A stretch of DNA of 43,091 nt, taken from IMG/VR virus record IMGVR_UViG_3300002835_000377, positions 1 to 43,091 of that record; one strand, 5' to 3'. This DNA comes from a virus. The translations under genes and the position numbers were made by a program. The notes under the pieces were generated by a model that was not told the DNA's origin, made no database searches, and saw only the letters and a list, made by a program, of their open reading frames with translations. Within the stretch, counting starts at the first letter, position 1. Each line of letters starts with the position of its first letter. Of the stretch, positions 2,353-8,633 are shown piece after piece.

Positions 2353-3585
2353 ATGGCATCAAGTTACTCTACAGACCTCAAGATAGAATTAATGGTCACT
2401 GGCGAAAATGCTGGTACCTGGGGTGAAAAAACTAATGACAATTTAAACGTAATTCAACAAGCTATTGCTGGATACGGAGAACAAAGTATAGCGGGTAGTG
2501 CTCAAACTACAGCTTTAACAATTGCAAATTCACCAACATTATCTGTTGCAAGAAATATCGTAATAAAATTAACAGGAACAATTACAGGAAATCAAATCGT
2601 AACAGTTCCATCAGGAATTGAAAAAACTTGGATTGTATCAAATGGTACAACAGGTGCATTTACAGTAGAATTTAAAACAGTTAGCGGAACAGGTGCTACT
2701 TGGTCTACAACTGATAAAGGAATTAAAATATTATATTCTGATGGAACAAACATTAACTCAACAGACTTAAGCACATTATCTGGAACAGTTGCTTCTGCAC
2801 AAATTGCAAACCTAGCAGTAACATCTGCTAAACTTGCGTCATTTGCAGTAACTGAAGCAAGACTTGCATCATTTGCAGTTACAACTTCAAGACTTGCAAC
2901 AAATGCTGTTACAGCTATTAAAATTGCACAATCTACAATTACACAATCAAAACTAGCAACAGGTTCTGTTGGAGCAGATCAATTAATTGCAACAGCAGTT
3001 ACTCCAGGAACCTATACAGCAGCTACAGTTACAGTTGATGCTGATGGTCGTATTACTGGCGCATCATCTGGATCAGCAGGTGCTGGTGGATTTGTACCAA
3101 CTCTTTTACAAGCAGGTCCTGCATCTGGAACATATACAGCCGCACCAACCGCAAATAGATTAGCGATATATATGTATGCCGGAGGAGGAGGAGGAGCTGG
3201 AAGTGGTAATGCCGATAATGCTACAGGTGGTTCTGGTGGTCCTGGTGGATATGGATTTTATAATAAACCAATTACACAACCATTTGCTCAACCTTATTCA
3301 GTAGCTGGTCCTGGACCAAGAAGAGGAAGTGGTGGAAATACTACAATTGCAAACGTTGGAACAGTAAATGGTGGTGGTGGTGGAAATTATGCACCTGGTA
3401 CTGCTAATGGAAATGTAGGAACAACAGGAACTGCCCCTGGAGCAACTTTAGGTATGTATAGTCCAAGTTCTTTTTTCTTGGCATCTTTTCCAGGTACCGG
3501 TGGGGCAGGAGTTGCTGCGCCTAACCCGTCAGCGGGAGTAGGTGGAGTAGGTTATTTATTAGTTTTAGAAAATACAGGAACATAA
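2353..3585 (+). CDS. Tail fibre protein with glycine-rich C-terminus
   Basis: A 410-aa protein. The N-terminus (ELMVTGENAGTWGEKTNDNL, then IQQAIAGYG) is a conserved virion-attachment type seen in many marine phage fibres. Residues about 150-215 form near-heptad repeats of the type SAKLASFAVT / TSRLATNAVT / ITQSKLATGSV, as expected for a trimeric fibre shaft. The C-terminal third is glycine-rich (GGGGGAGSG, GGSGGPGGYG, NGGGGGNY), resembling glycine-rich receptor-binding tips. AGGAG lies 8 bases before the ATG. The next gene follows after one base, a position often held by fibre-associated proteins. Role: receptor recognition at the tail; the N-terminal family is confident, the receptor unknown. 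Confidence 0.8.
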   Translation: MASSYSTDLKIELMVTGENAGTWGEKTNDNLNVIQQAIAGYGEQSIAGSAQTTALTIANSPTLSVARNIVIKLTGTITGNQIVTVPSGIEKTWIVSNGTTGAFTVEFKTVSGTGATWSTTDKGIKILYSDGTNINSTDLSTLSGTVASAQIANLAVTSAKLASFAVTEARLASFAVTTSRLATNAVTAIKIAQSTITQSKLATGSVGADQLIATAVTPGTYTAATVTVDADGRITGASSGSAGAGGFVPTLLQAGPASGTYTAAPTANRLAIYMYAGGGGGAGSGNADNATGGSGGPGGYGFYNKPITQPFAQPYSVAGPGPRRGSGGNTTIANVGTVNGGGGGNYAPGTANGNVGTTGTAPGATLGMYSPSSFFLASFPGTGGAGVAAPNPSAGVGGVGYLLVLENTGT

Positions 3586-4051: not shown

Positions 4052-4805
4052 GTTTGATAAAGAAATAGAATTTAGTGCTCACGAAGATTATTTTGCATTA
4101 AAAGAAGATTATCCAATACCTGCAAAATTAAACATACCAGAATGGTATAAAAATTTAGAACATACTATAATAAATAGAACAGTTAAAGGATGCATGCCTT
4201 TTTTAGATTCTTTAACAGCTGGGTACATATTAAAAATGCCTCAAGATTTTTATATTAGACACAACGTAGATAGTAAAAATGAAAAAGGAGAAAACTTTAA
4301 AGACTGTTTCCAAAATTTTGGATTACAAACTTGGAGAGAAAGAATTAGCGCAAAATTATTAAATTTAAATGCAGGAGTTGATGTACATCCAACCGTACAA
4401 GTAATGAATTCACCTTTTGTTGAAAAAAATAAAAATTTACCATTACATAAAATCTTAAACCCATGGAAAATAAAAACACCAAAAGGATATTCTTGTTTAT
4501 TTGTTCCACCAATGAATACTTCTGATGATAGATTTTCTATTATCCCTGGAATAGTTGATACAGACACCTTCCCTAATGAAATTAATTTTCCATTTGTGGT
4601 TAACGGTGATAAATATCCTATTTTAGAAACATTAATTAAAAAAGGAACCCCTTATGCTCAAATAATTCCTTTTAAGAGAGATTCTTGGAAAATGAACCTT
4701 AAACCTAGAAAAAAAGAAGAAATAGTAAATTCAATGGTTTTTTTTGCATTAACTATTATAAATTCTTACAAAGAAAAATATTGGAGTAAAAAATCATGGA
4801 AATAA
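4050..4805 (+). CDS. Uncharacterised phage cargo protein, 251 aa
   Basis: First gene of the cargo block. N-terminus FSAHEDYFALKEDYPIPAKL followed by IPEWYKNL, and a central KGCMPFLDSLTAGYILKMP segment: a family often seen in marine viruses and some bacteria without assigned function, possibly DUF6065, which I cannot confirm. The second half has short aromatic/proline strands (YSCLFVPPMN, FSIIPGIVDTDTF, YAQIIPFKRDSW) suggesting a cupin-like or other beta fold. Clusters of this type often accompany 2OG-Fe(II) oxygenases, as here. The gene overlaps the next by 10 bases. Confidence 0.6.
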   Translation: MFDKEIEFSAHEDYFALKEDYPIPAKLNIPEWYKNLEHTIINRTVKGCMPFLDSLTAGYILKMPQDFYIRHNVDSKNEKGENFKDCFQNFGLQTWRERISAKLLNLNAGVDVHPTVQVMNSPFVEKNKNLPLHKILNPWKIKTPKGYSCLFVPPMNTSDDRFSIIPGIVDTDTFPNEINFPFVVNGDKYPILETLIKKGTPYAQIIPFKRDSWKMNLKPRKKEEIVNSMVFFALTIINSYKEKYWSKKSWK

Positions 4806-5365
4806 AAAATTTTATAAAAATATACGATGAGGTTTTACCTTGGAATGTTTTATCAAATTTAATTAAATTTGCTAATGTTGCGAAATTTAAAGATGCTGAA
4901 ATTGGTGGCGAAAAAGAATATGTAAAAAATTTTAATGTTAGAAGAACTTATACTTGCCCACTATCTAATATGAGCAACTATATTTCTGATGTTCATTGGT
5001 TTAATTTATTACATTTTTATTTTAATAAAAATTTAAATAAATATAAATTTGATTTAAATATATTAGATTATAGTTATAAAAATATTTTTGATATTGAAAT
5101 TTTAAAATATGAAAACACTGGATTTTATACATGGCACGTAGATCATTTTGCAGAAATTCCAAGAACAATGAGTTGTATATTGCTTTTAAATAATGATTAT
5201 GAAGGTGGAAATTTATGGTTTAGGAATCCAGATGGATCAGGAGAATGGGAAGTAGATGTTAAACCAAACAGAATGATTATTTGGCCTAGTAATTTTTTGT
5301 ATCCGCATACAGTTAAACCAGTGACGAAAGGAAAAAGGTATTCAGTTGTAGCATGGGCACTATAA
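4796..5365 (+). CDS. 2OG-Fe(II) oxygenase (prolyl-4-hydroxylase-like)
   Basis: A 189-aa protein with the double-stranded beta-helix metal motif: H114-V-D116 in FYTWHVDHF, distal H171 in LYPHTVKPV, and R181 in GKRYSVVAWAL to bind 2-oxoglutarate. The GGNLWFRNPDG turn between them is typical of the P4Hc family. Such enzymes couple 2-oxoglutarate decarboxylation to hydroxylation of a substrate (protein side chain, nucleotide or small molecule); the substrate cannot be read from sequence. Overlaps its neighbours on both sides, so it is translationally coupled. Confidence 0.85.
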   Translation: MEIKNFIKIYDEVLPWNVLSNLIKFANVAKFKDAEIGGEKEYVKNFNVRRTYTCPLSNMSNYISDVHWFNLLHFYFNKNLNKYKFDLNILDYSYKNIFDIEILKYENTGFYTWHVDHFAEIPRTMSCILLLNNDYEGGNLWFRNPDGSGEWEVDVKPNRMIIWPSNFLYPHTVKPVTKGKRYSVVAWAL

Positions 5366-5898
5366 AAGATTTTAAATATAAATTAATTAAAAATTTTTTA
5401 ACAAAAGAAGAGGTTAAATTATTAACTGATTATTGTAGGATTAAACACAGAATAAATTTTGATTCTTTTGATTCTCAACAAAATGATAATGGAGATACTT
5501 TTTTTTATGGAGACTCATTAATGGAATCTTTAATGGTTAATAAATTAGAATTAATGCAAAAAGAAACAGGACTTGAATTACTACCAACCTATGCATTTTG
5601 GAGAATGTACACAGTAAATGCCGATTTAAAAAAACACACCGATAGGGAATCTTGCGAAATTAGTGTAACGGTTATGATAGGGTCTGATAAAACACCTTGG
5701 CCAATATATATGAATGGAGCAGAAATTAATATGGAACCAGGCGATGCCGCAATATATTTAGGTTGTGAAATAGAACATTGGAGAGAAGAATTTAAAGGAG
5801 ATTGGCATGCTCAAACTTTTTTACATTATGTTGATAAGAATGGACCTAATAAAGAATGGTTTAAAGATAAAAGATTATTATATGGAGTACAAAAATGA
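5353..5898 (+). CDS. 2OG-Fe(II) oxygenase-like protein
   Basis: A 181-aa protein. Metal-site candidates are H95-T-D97 in LKKHTDRESCEISV and H142 in EIEHWREEF, followed by WHAQTFLHYVD. The strand pattern between (ISVTVMIGSD, PIYMNGAEINMEPGDAAIY) fits the jelly-roll core, and MEPGDAAIYLG is the usual strand before the distal His. The 2OG-binding basic residue is less clear than in its neighbours. The family is common in marine phages. Overlaps the preceding oxygenase by 13 bases and the next gene by 4 (ATGA). Confidence 0.75.
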   Translation: MGTIKDFKYKLIKNFLTKEEVKLLTDYCRIKHRINFDSFDSQQNDNGDTFFYGDSLMESLMVNKLELMQKETGLELLPTYAFWRMYTVNADLKKHTDRESCEISVTVMIGSDKTPWPIYMNGAEINMEPGDAAIYLGCEIEHWREEFKGDWHAQTFLHYVDKNGPNKEWFKDKRLLYGVQK

Positions 5899-6113: not shown

Positions 6114-6650
6114 ATGATTGAAGTTATAAAAAATATTTTACCAAAAGAAATTAATAAAAAAATTATTTTGTTTTTATTGAAATCAAGAAATTGGGGAATA
6201 GCAAAAGATAAAGGAGGAGAAGTAGAATTATTAAATGAATTAATTGGCACATCTGGAAAAGATTACGGTTTTTCTTTACAAACTCTTGATGTTAAAGATG
6301 GAATATATATTGAGGGACCATTAAATTTATATGCAGAAATAATTTATGAAATAATTAAAAAACATACAAAATACAAATTTTTAAAACCAATGAGGTTTTA
6401 TTGGAATTACTATAATAATTTTTCTCAAACATTACCACATAAAGATAGAGATGAGAATTTTTATTTAAGTTTTGTATATAATTTACATGACAATGATGGA
6501 GGAACAAAAATAAATGATGAGTTTTTTAAATCAAATTCAGGTGAAGCTATTTTATTTCCAAGTAACTGTATGCATGTAGGTATTTCTTCATCTAATACAA
6601 AAGGAAGATTTAATTTAAACTGCATTGTAGAATTAGAGAGATCTATATAA
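6114..6650 (+). CDS. 2OG-Fe(II) oxygenase
   Basis: A 178-aa protein with H109-K-D111 in LPHKDRDENFYLSFVYNL, distal H154 in SNCMHVG and R165 in KGRFNLNCIVEL, the complete His-Asp-His-Arg set of 2-oxoglutarate oxygenases. The SGEAILFPSN strand before the distal His is typical. Unlike the P4H-like neighbour it resembles the family acting on sugars or small metabolites, though the substrate is unknown. Starts immediately after the preceding stop; six bases separate it from the sulfotransferase. Confidence 0.82.
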   Translation: MIEVIKNILPKEINKKIILFLLKSRNWGIAKDKGGEVELLNELIGTSGKDYGFSLQTLDVKDGIYIEGPLNLYAEIIYEIIKKHTKYKFLKPMRFYWNYYNNFSQTLPHKDRDENFYLSFVYNLHDNDGGTKINDEFFKSNSGEAILFPSNCMHVGISSSNTKGRFNLNCIVELERSI

Positions 6651-6656
6651 TTTTAC

Positions 6657-7403
6657 ATGAAAAATATTTATTTTTTAATTGGTTTACCGAGAGCTGGAAA
6701 CACTCTTTTAGGGTCTTTATTAAATCAAAATAAAAAAATTTCTCTCACTGCAAATACACTACTTTGTGATGTAATTGAAAATATAGAGTCTCTTAAAAAT
6801 TCTTTAATTTTTAAAAATTTTCCAGACCATAATTCGTTGGATAATGTAGTTAAAAATATATTTAATAACTATTATAATGATTGGAATGCTGAACATATTA
6901 TAGATAGGGGACCTTGGGGCACACCTTCAAATTTACAAAATTTAAAAAAAATAATCAATAAGCCTAAGTTTATAATATTATATAGACCTGTTTTAGAAAT
7001 ATTGGCTTCTTTTGTAAAAATAGAAAATCCTAAAAACGTTGAAGATGCATGTGATGATTTTATGAATATGAATAAAAATTCTATTTTACTTAAAAATCTT
7101 TGGTCGATATATAATATTATAGAAAATAAAGAAAAGTTTTTAATTTTACACTATAAAAATTTAGTGGAGGATACTCTAACGGAAATAAAAAAAATTTATG
7201 AATTTATCAATGTTCCTTATTCAGAAACTAAATTAATAAATTTTGATAAATTTAATGCAAATAATGTAAGCTATGATGATTCTGTTTTGAATGCAAATAT
7301 ACATGAAATTAGAACAGATAACATTTCATTTTCAAAATATGATATAAAAGAAGTTCTTTCAAAAAATATCATAGAAAAATATTCTGGATTGGATATTTTA
7401 TGA
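6657..7403 (+). CDS. Sulfotransferase
   Basis: A 248-aa protein whose N-terminus carries the PAPS 5'-phosphosulfate loop, I-G-L-P-R-A-G-N-T (residues 8-16) followed by LLGSLLNQN. A second signature, FIILYRPVLEILASFVK, matches the 3'-phosphate-binding strand/helix of the family. Sulfotransferases move sulfate from PAPS to a hydroxyl or amine on a sugar, lipid or peptide. The next gene, overlapping by 4 bases, encodes an APS-kinase-like protein that could supply PAPS. The acceptor is unknown; phage-modified host surface glycan or a virion glycan are plausible. Confidence 0.8.
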   Translation: MKNIYFLIGLPRAGNTLLGSLLNQNKKISLTANTLLCDVIENIESLKNSLIFKNFPDHNSLDNVVKNIFNNYYNDWNAEHIIDRGPWGTPSNLQNLKKIINKPKFIILYRPVLEILASFVKIENPKNVEDACDDFMNMNKNSILLKNLWSIYNIIENKEKFLILHYKNLVEDTLTEIKKIYEFINVPYSETKLINFDKFNANNVSYDDSVLNANIHEIRTDNISFSKYDIKEVLSKNIIEKYSGLDIL

Positions 7404-7789
7404 AAATATTAATATTTGGATTACCTGGATCTGGCAAAACTACTTTTGCTAAAAAATTAGTTGAGAATAAAAAAATACCACACTTCAATGCTGATGATAT
7501 TAGAAAGCTATTTGAAGATTGGGATTTCACAGAAAATGGCAGAAGACGACAAGCGAATCGTATGATGACTATGTGTGATCTTGCAATTAATCATGTAGTT
7601 GTAGATTTTGTATGTCCATTTGAATCATATAGATCTTTTTATGATATGAAGATTTGGATGAATACAATTGATAAAGGAAGATTTGAAGATACAAATAAAG
7701 TATTTGAAAAACCTAAAAAAGTAGATTTCGAAATAACTGATTTTAATTACGATAGCATAATAAAAGATATACAAAATAAATTATTATGA
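7400..7789 (+). CDS. cysC: Adenylylsulfate (APS) kinase-like protein, short
   Basis: A 129-aa P-loop protein: G7-L-P-G-S-G-K-T-T15 (Walker A), NADDIRKLFEDWDF, then ENGRRRQANRM and VVDFVCPFESYR. These correspond in order to the APS kinase signatures (GDNIR, the RR-containing helix, and the iaPfR motif). The C-terminal IWMNTIDKGRFEDTNKVFE is also family-like. It is much shorter than the roughly 200 aa of bacterial CysC and lacks the usual lid/C-terminal part, so activity is not certain. Reaction: APS plus ATP gives PAPS plus ADP. Lies between the sulfotransferase and an HxGH nucleotidyltransferase with ATGA overlaps on both sides. Confidence 0.72.
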   Translation: MKILIFGLPGSGKTTFAKKLVENKKIPHFNADDIRKLFEDWDFTENGRRRQANRMMTMCDLAINHVVVDFVCPFESYRSFYDMKIWMNTIDKGRFEDTNKVFEKPKKVDFEITDFNYDSIIKDIQNKLL

Positions 7790-8259
7790 AACTTAAAATT
7801 AATAGAGTAGTCAAAAATTGGAAACTTGCAAATAATGTTGCAATTGAAAATAATACATTTAATGATAATGGTTTTGGCAGAAGATTTAAAAGCCAAGATT
7901 CTGCTAATCATTGGGAAGAAGCTTTCGCTGAATTTGGATTAAAACCACATTGTATTGAGCCTAAATTTAAAAATTTTATAGGAAACCATTTTAAAGATGG
8001 TGCCGCCGTTCATGAACATACTGATGAAGCACCGGAAGGATTTGTACATACAAGATGTAATTTAATGTTAAAGAAACCGATTAAAGGAGGGAACCCAGTA
8101 TTAGATGGAGAAGAAATTCAAGTTGATAAAAATGATTTATGGTTATGTTTAGCAAGTTTAGAAAAACATTATACTACACCAGTTGAAGGCGGAGAAAGAT
8201 TAATTTTTTCTTTCGGTGGTTTAGTTCCTGTAGAACAAATTAAAAAGATAATAGCATGA
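7786..8259 (+). CDS. 2OG-Fe(II) oxygenase-like protein
   Basis: A 157-aa protein with H78-T-D80 (VHEHTDEAPEGF), distal H128 (LEKHYTTPV) and R138 (GERLIFSFGG), a full His-Asp-His-Arg set in a compact jelly roll. The intervening strands CNLMLKKPIKGGNPVLDGEE and VDKNDLWLCLAS have expected spacing. Fourth oxygenase of the block; it sits inside the sulfate-activation trio, so its substrate could be the same molecule that is sulfated, which is inference. Overlaps neighbours by ATGA at both ends. Confidence 0.75.
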   Translation: MKLKINRVVKNWKLANNVAIENNTFNDNGFGRRFKSQDSANHWEEAFAEFGLKPHCIEPKFKNFIGNHFKDGAAVHEHTDEAPEGFVHTRCNLMLKKPIKGGNPVLDGEEIQVDKNDLWLCLASLEKHYTTPVEGGERLIFSFGGLVPVEQIKKIIA

Positions 8260-8603
8260 TAGATTATTCAAAACCTACAGCACAAATGTTAGGGAGATGG
8301 CAACCATTTCACGATGGTCATTTAGCTTTATTTAAAGAAATATTAAAGAAGACTGGACAAGTTGTTATTATGGTAAGATCAATGCCACAAACAGAAAATA
8401 ACCCATTTGTATTTGAAGATATAAAGAAAAGGATAGAAGAAAAATTACAAGACTATGTAGGTAAATTTGATGTTGTGAAAGTACCAAACATTACCAATAT
8501 ATGTTATGGTAGAGATGTTGGTTATAAGATTGAAGAGATCGTGCTTCCAAAAGAAATACAGGAAATATCAGCTACAAAAATTAGACAAGAAATGAAGAAA
8601 TAA
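8256..8603 (+). CDS. HxGH nucleotidyltransferase (cytidylyltransferase-like)
   Basis: A 115-aa Rossmann-type nucleotidyltransferase: GRWQPFHDGH (residues 13-22) holds the H19-D-G-H22 nucleotide-binding motif and ISATKIR (104-110) the family's C-terminal signature. This fold includes NMN, pantetheine-phosphate and glycerol-phosphate transferases and ATP sulfurylase. Closest by eye are small NMN/cytidylyltransferase-like domains (GRFQPFHxGH). Because it adjoins an APS kinase and a sulfotransferase, a sulfate-adenylylating role is conceivable but unproven. Last gene of the cargo block. Confidence 0.75.
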   Translation: MIDYSKPTAQMLGRWQPFHDGHLALFKEILKKTGQVVIMVRSMPQTENNPFVFEDIKKRIEEKLQDYVGKFDVVKVPNITNICYGRDVGYKIEEIVLPKEIQEISATKIRQEMKK

Positions 8604-8633
8604 CTCCATATTTCATCTTAGTTGAATATAAGG

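Follow-up and report, generated by a model that had tools for sequence, protein, structure and literature searches.

In a phage record of 43,091 bases from IMG/VR (the whole stretch analyzed, referred to below as the window), which encodes a terminase, a DNA polymerase, a primase, and a virion protein, two small genes, KIN and NT, are predicted to encode the two parts of a miniature PAPS-synthase-like system that feeds PAPS to the product of an adjacent sulfotransferase gene, ST. Judging from sequence comparisons and gene neighborhoods, this reading has a probability of about 65%. In the proposed pathway, NT would convert ATP and inorganic sulfate to APS and PPi; KIN would use a second ATP to place a phosphate on the 3'-OH of APS, yielding PAPS and ADP; and ST would transfer sulfate from PAPS to an acceptor, possibly the tail fiber of the phage itself.

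ST, KIN, oxyD, and NT are arranged head to tail at positions 6657 to 8603 of the window and, according to the list of open reading frames (ORFs), overlap by 4 bases at every junction. All are on the plus strand: ST (248 aa) at 6657 to 7403; KIN (129 aa), a minimal, lid-less homologue of APS kinases, at 7400 to 7789; oxyD (157 aa), an oxygenase-like ORF between KIN and NT, at 7786 to 8259; and NT (115 aa), an HxGH nucleotidyltransferase and proposed sulfate adenylyltransferase, at 8256 to 8603. Three more plus-strand genes belong to the same module. These are oxyA (4796 to 5365), encoding a 2OG-Fe(II) oxygenase (PF13640, E value of 1.6e-17); oxyB (5353 to 5898), which is oxygenase-like, with matches to phrog_2954 and phrog_3531 and no Pfam match; and oxyC (6114 to 6650), also oxygenase-like, which matches phrog_274 (E value of 9e-16) and, weakly, the 2OG-Fe(II) oxygenase family phrog_61. 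A tail-fiber-like protein with a Gly-rich C terminus, encoded on the same strand at 2353 to 3585 (phrog_892, tail fiber, E value of 2e-10), is a candidate acceptor. The original prediction described a sulfotransferase, an APS-kinase-like protein, and an HxGH nucleotidyltransferase joined by 4-base overlaps, and the ORFs and Pfam searches confirm this description. It also placed an oxygenase between the kinase and the nucleotidyltransferase. The ORF is indeed there, and family searches do not show it to be an oxygenase: Pfam and PHROG searches with oxyD found no Pfam match and a PHROG match to phrog_13746 (E value of 5e-9), a family of unknown function. An oxygenase is still a plausible identity for oxyD.

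The ST protein scores well above the Pfam cutoff for Sulfotransfer_3 (PF13469; E value of 3.2e-13, 50.9 bits, cutoff of 27) and also matches Sulfotransfer_1 (PF00685; E value of 2.7e-10). Residues R12, G14, N15, T16, R110, and S118 are invariant in eight diverse homologues. The first four are part of a 5'-PSB-like motif, LPR12AG14N15T16, and R110 and S118 are separated by 8 residues, the Arg/Ser spacing of the 3'-phosphate-binding (3'-PB) motif of PAPS sulfotransferases. ST thus combines the family score with the 5'-PSB and 3'-PB residues of a PAPS-dependent sulfotransferase. A PDB search with ST produced no significant match.

In Pfam searches, KIN exceeds the APS_kinase (PF01583) cutoff only marginally (22.2 bits, cutoff of 21.1), and AAA_33 scores higher. 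A family profile built from 30 fused relatives (see below) has APS kinases as its best PDB matches (E value of 4e-13), and the structural model of one fused relative (mean pLDDT of 90.5) retrieves APS kinases as the top Foldseek matches (E value of 2e-6). KIN and CysC share the P-loop, the D..R, (D/W)xF, RxxQ, and F(V/I)xP motifs, and the adenine-sandwich aromatic residue. In the Mycobacterium tuberculosis CysC, contacts to APS are made by Asp480, Arg483, Arg497, the adenine sandwich of Phe492 and Phe576, and the backbone of Ile523; the lid contributes Arg559, which stacks on the adenine of ATP, and Lys562, and these two residues serve ATP and the transferred phosphate (PMC4373884). Residues K13 (the P-loop Lys), D32, R35, F43, R48, V71, and F95 of KIN map to the APS and ATP contacts of CysC. 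D32, R35, F43, and R48 were placed by an HMM alignment, and F95, where every family member has Phe or Tyr, was placed by hand. The equivalents of D480, R483, F492, R497, and F576 (M. tuberculosis numbering) are therefore all retained. CysC has ~200 residues, including the lid with Arg559 and Lys562, whereas KIN has only 129: the profile match of the family stops short of the CysC lid, and in the hand alignment to CysC the ~13 residues that include the equivalents of Arg559 and Lys562 are missing in every KIN-family member. The original prediction considered that the short kinase might be a minimal or altered version and would have been refuted by a loss of the APS-binding residues; the core residues are kept, and only those of the lid are missing. 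KIN thus appears to be an APS kinase minus the lid, and its predicted 3'-phosphorylation of APS is well supported by these residues.

NT belongs to the CTP_transf_like family (PF01467; 32.2 bits, cutoff of 21). Its best matches among curated HMMs and in PDB are NadM-type NMN adenylyltransferases, all of them far below the curated cutoffs (38 bits with PRK01153, cutoff of 127; 32.8 bits with TIGR01527, cutoff of 181.2). The NT model (mean pLDDT of 91.3, with three strands) is matched by Foldseek to phosphopantetheine adenylyltransferase (PPAT), NMNAT, and related folds, with a best E value of 1.5e-3. No ATP sulfurylase is among the matches listed by the Pfam, curated HMM, or PDB profile searches or among the top 50 Foldseek matches. 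Membership of NT in the ATP sulfurylase family was therefore rejected, its sequence and fold being nearest to those of the NMN and phosphopantetheine adenylyltransferases, and the tie to ATP sulfurylase named in the original prediction is one at the level of the superfamily. With the NadM-type NMNAT and PPAT enzymes, NT shares the GR[FWY]QP[FW]HxGH, NP, and ISxTxIR motifs. It differs from NadM (~170 aa) in being ~50 residues shorter, with the C-terminal part absent and the NMNAT profile match ending near residue 78, in its genomic company, and in a distinctive invariant motif, YGR[DG]VGY; an Arg is also found next to HxGH. In an alignment of 60 sequences, the invariant residues are R14, H19, H22, R41, N49-P50, Y84-G85-R86, V88-G89, S105-A106-T107, and R110.

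Sulfurylases carry the motifs QTRNPxHxxH, GRDHAG, and ISGTxxR in the alignments. Features common to NT and Sat (PF01747) are the HxxH-type active site, the GRD-like motif, and the proposed reaction, whereas homology between them is undetectable beyond the HxGH superfamily; CysD has a different fold. Docking to human PAPSS1 places the sulfate between R421, in the motif that precedes HNGH, and R522 (PMC11697783). The resemblance of YGR[DG]VGY in NT to GRD(H/P)AG in sulfurylases is suggestive only. R522 of PAPSS1 is probably the Arg of GRDPAG. We infer that NT may work like an ATP sulfurylase, with sulfate as its specific substrate.

KIN and NT belong together as one system, since they are fused elsewhere and adjacent in most close viral relatives. 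In phrog_10255 (230 aa), residues 2 to 118 align to KIN and residues 124 to 229, in the C-terminal half, align to NT. This family, a single ORF in phages of Stenotrophomonas and Xanthomonas, carries no annotation beyond kinase or hypothetical protein. Fusions, giving proteins of about 245 to 270 aa, also occur in additional phages and in Alphaproteobacteria, among them one SAR11 genome. Among 149 KIN/NT loci, a count that includes duplicated contigs, KIN and NT overlap by 14 bases in 91 and by 17 bases in 36, and most of the rest have a gap of about one gene. As the two genes overlap directly in most of these loci, oxyD, which is absent from most relatives, is an occasional insert into a native KIN-NT pair. 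The 14- and 17-base overlaps suggested a programmed frameshift, which was rejected: most of the junctions in relatives have a Shine-Dalgarno-like GGAG ahead of the NT ATG, and this fits ordinary initiation. A literature search for the KIN-NT gene pair found nothing. The original prediction missed the fusion, the inserted nature of the oxygenase-like gene, and the presence of the pair in bacteria as well as viruses; its observation is confirmed, and its interpretation is partly supported and extended.

A scan of GTDB genomes revealed NT relatives at 67 to 71% identity, of which 80 were kept, nearly all from Pelagibacteraceae and most with KIN nearby. Genes for CbiX, a CobA-type methyltransferase, sulfite reductase, CysH, and a DUF2061 protein lie upstream at three of the loci. 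In total, KIN-NT is located directly downstream of a CbiX-CobA-CysI-CysH-DUF2061 array in five marine alphaproteobacterial genomes, with CysI (709 bits, cutoff of 457) and CysH (254 bits, cutoff of 154) identified by Pfam and NCBIfam searches at equivalog cutoffs. Whole-genome searches of the six genomes of this cys-operon family found CysH in every one and NT in five; in the remaining genome, the contig breaks off shortly after CysH. A PF01747 sulfurylase was found in only one of the six. No CysD was seen in the six genomes, each of which has one strong PF01507 match. Accordingly, four of the five genomes with KIN-NT in the cys operon have no canonical ATP sulfurylase, an absence that is strong only jointly, as these genomes are small or incomplete (0.6 to 1.1 Mb). 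The sole PF01747 sulfurylase, in genome G010, lies on a contig with genes that, as read from their sequences, are NeuB-like and otherwise surface-sugar-like. An order-level search for a wider cys-operon clade returned the same six genomes. Of the ten KIN-NT-containing marine genomes checked, nine have a single APS_kinase match and no second CysC-type kinase. KIN-NT fills the ATP sulfurylase/APS kinase slot of these assimilatory sulfate-reduction operons. It is mainly because the cys operon encodes the reductases, and no activating enzyme except KIN-NT, that we regard KIN-NT as quite probably a sulfate-activating system.

Other contexts fit less well. In SAR11 (Pelagibacteraceae loci L151 to L230; e.g., L174, 8 to 9208; L202, 3567 to 5746; L193, 3588 to 4940), the KIN-NT region is conserved and encodes a methyltransferase, a Rieske oxygenase, an M24 peptidase, a HalD-like 2OG oxygenase, and an enoyl-CoA hydratase, in some cases also EgtB/EgtD-like and SBP56 proteins. 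There is no cys operon next to it, and SAR11 lacks CysH. Many SAR11 genomes have KIN and NT separated by an insertion of one or two autotransporter genes (L174, 3423 to 7942, and others). One SAR11 locus, L327, is unlike the others: a fused KIN-NT gene (7829 to 8605) adjoins a gene for a SIS-domain protein (7257 to 7823) and glycosyltransferase-like genes. This SIS-domain neighbor prompted consideration of a heptose/LPS pathway for KIN-NT, which was rejected as resting on a single case. ST was found in 3 of 10 KIN-NT-containing genomes, and a canonical sulfurylase coexists with KIN-NT in two genomes, G010 and, among the SAR11 genomes searched, G009. In fused-type phages, the neighbors of KIN-NT are recombination and glycosyltransferase-like genes, and ST is usually absent: it scores above the cutoff in just 3 of the 18 large fused-type viral records, and none was found within ~5 kb of phrog_10255-type fusions at the three loci read. 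CysH was not detected in any of 19 KIN-NT viral records. In T4-like phages, HAD-like and glycosyltransferase-like proteins, neither with a Pfam match, flank the fused KIN-NT within the region of recombination genes (L282, 4995 to 5588 and 6351 to 7025, with equivalents in other contigs). In the fused-type phages, either PAPS has other users or the NT substrate varies across the family.

These contexts leave some room for a different donor, in which NT would attach a nucleotide to a compound X (a different small anion or a phospho-compound), KIN would phosphorylate the 3'-OH, and an ST-like transferase would move X from the resulting 3'-phospho-adenylyl or -cytidylyl carrier. In a parallel case, that of Cj1415/Cj1416 from Campylobacter, an APS kinase homologue reportedly acts on cytidine diphosphoramidate. 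Such a donor would agree with the placement of NT outside the ATP sulfurylase family, with the occurrence of KIN-NT in SAR11 and T4-like phages that have neither CysH nor ST nearby, and with its neighbors there, the Rieske oxygenase, M24 peptidase, EgtB/EgtD-like, SBP56, or glycosyltransferase-like genes. However, KIN-NT is the sole candidate there for the sulfurylase that the five cys operons require, and ST, its partner, is a conventional member of PF13469. In addition, the cys-operon, SAR11, and phage groups do not differ in their active-site residues. When 52 KIN+NT proteins were placed in a tree, the sequences from each of three sources (ST-type phages, the cys-operon clade, and SAR11) formed a group of their own, so only these shared residues carry the function across clades. 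On balance, a different donor seems unlikely, and sulfate activation followed by sulfotransfer is the preferred reading.

In viruses, the link of KIN-NT to ST is seen at loci with split genes. Among close relatives of the window phage, ST is upstream of KIN at 69 of 79 distinct loci, and at 59 it either overlaps KIN or stops no more than 25 bases short of it; in a broader set, ST is upstream at 96 of 114 loci with split genes versus none of 25 with fused genes. The loci were sampled by similarity, so these fractions are not population estimates. Across contigs, KIN and NT are mostly 85 to 96% identical (a few KIN sequences are near 60%), versus only 26 to 60% for their STs, as might be expected if KIN-NT is a constant donor maker paired with a diversifying transferase. 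The original prediction would have been refuted had the three genes rarely occurred together elsewhere; they are commonly found together in viral contigs, and the ST-KIN-NT arrangement is not due to chance, since it recurs across many of them. The further suggestion that the trio might span the route from sulfate activation to transfer gains strong, though indirect, support from this linkage and from the position of KIN-NT in the cys operons, and loses from the clustering of NT away from ATP sulfurylases.

The converse linkage fails: the interval between the tail fiber and virion protein genes is highly variable and often contains ST without KIN-NT, which is missing from the flanks read at 58 of 77 ST loci. 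No canonical kinase or sulfurylase was seen to recur as a replacement behind these STs, where mostly oxygenase-like genes are found. Accordingly, ST and KIN-NT could be unrelated cargo in a hotspot of tail-fiber-associated enzymes, their adjacency having no pathway meaning. We consider this improbable, as KIN-NT is nearly always directly behind ST in these phages despite the differences among the other neighbors. In some relatives (L373, 893 to 2359; also L352, L353, L371, and L382), a protein of the tryptophan halogenase family (PF04820, E value of 5e-110) is encoded next to ST and the oxygenases, between the tail fiber and virion genes.

Among known systems, one of the closest parallels to a sulfate-activating KIN-NT is PAPS synthase (human PAPSS1/2; Sat-CysC of Aquifex), which likewise combines an APS-kinase-like domain with an HxGH adenylyltransferase, as is the case in the many fused relatives of KIN-NT. 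In PAPSS, the kinase comes first, as in fused KIN-NT, and the sequence of reactions is the one proposed here, sulfate to APS to PAPS. The differences are substantial: PAPS synthase has ~624 residues, whereas KIN-NT, encoded by two genes in the window phage, is far smaller even when fused; NT lies outside the ATP sulfurylase family and is devoid of a PUA-like domain; and KIN has no lid. The pairing of a kinase with an HxGH nucleotidyltransferase is also that of the domains of NadR, and together with the NadM-type best matches of NT it might indicate an NAD salvage pair of a riboside kinase and an NMN adenylyltransferase, the least probable reading, given that KIN is by profile and fold an APS kinase and not a ribosylnicotinamide kinase, that NT is too short and scores too low for NadM, that NadR has the reverse domain order, and that the pair is surrounded by cys genes and ST instead of genes of NAD metabolism.

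As for the acceptor, the location of ST and the oxygenases between the tail fiber gene and another virion gene makes the tail fiber a possible acceptor; more generally, the position of the module between the Gly-rich tail fiber and a virion protein, along with the halogenase in relatives, makes a virion protein our first guess, held with low confidence. Sulfate activation is generally regarded as beginning with either Sat or CysDN. There is perhaps an even chance that NT, a 115-aa protein related to the NMN adenylyltransferases, represents a third, so far unrecognized class of ATP sulfurylase that replaces Sat and CysDN in streamlined marine Alphaproteobacteria, that together with the lid-less KIN it constitutes the smallest known PAPS-making system, and that phages couple this system to virion-modifying sulfotransferases. 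The function of phage sulfotransferases has been called unclear (PMC10580990). If the proposed pathway is correct, it would explain the source of PAPS for these enzymes in hosts that may not make PAPS.
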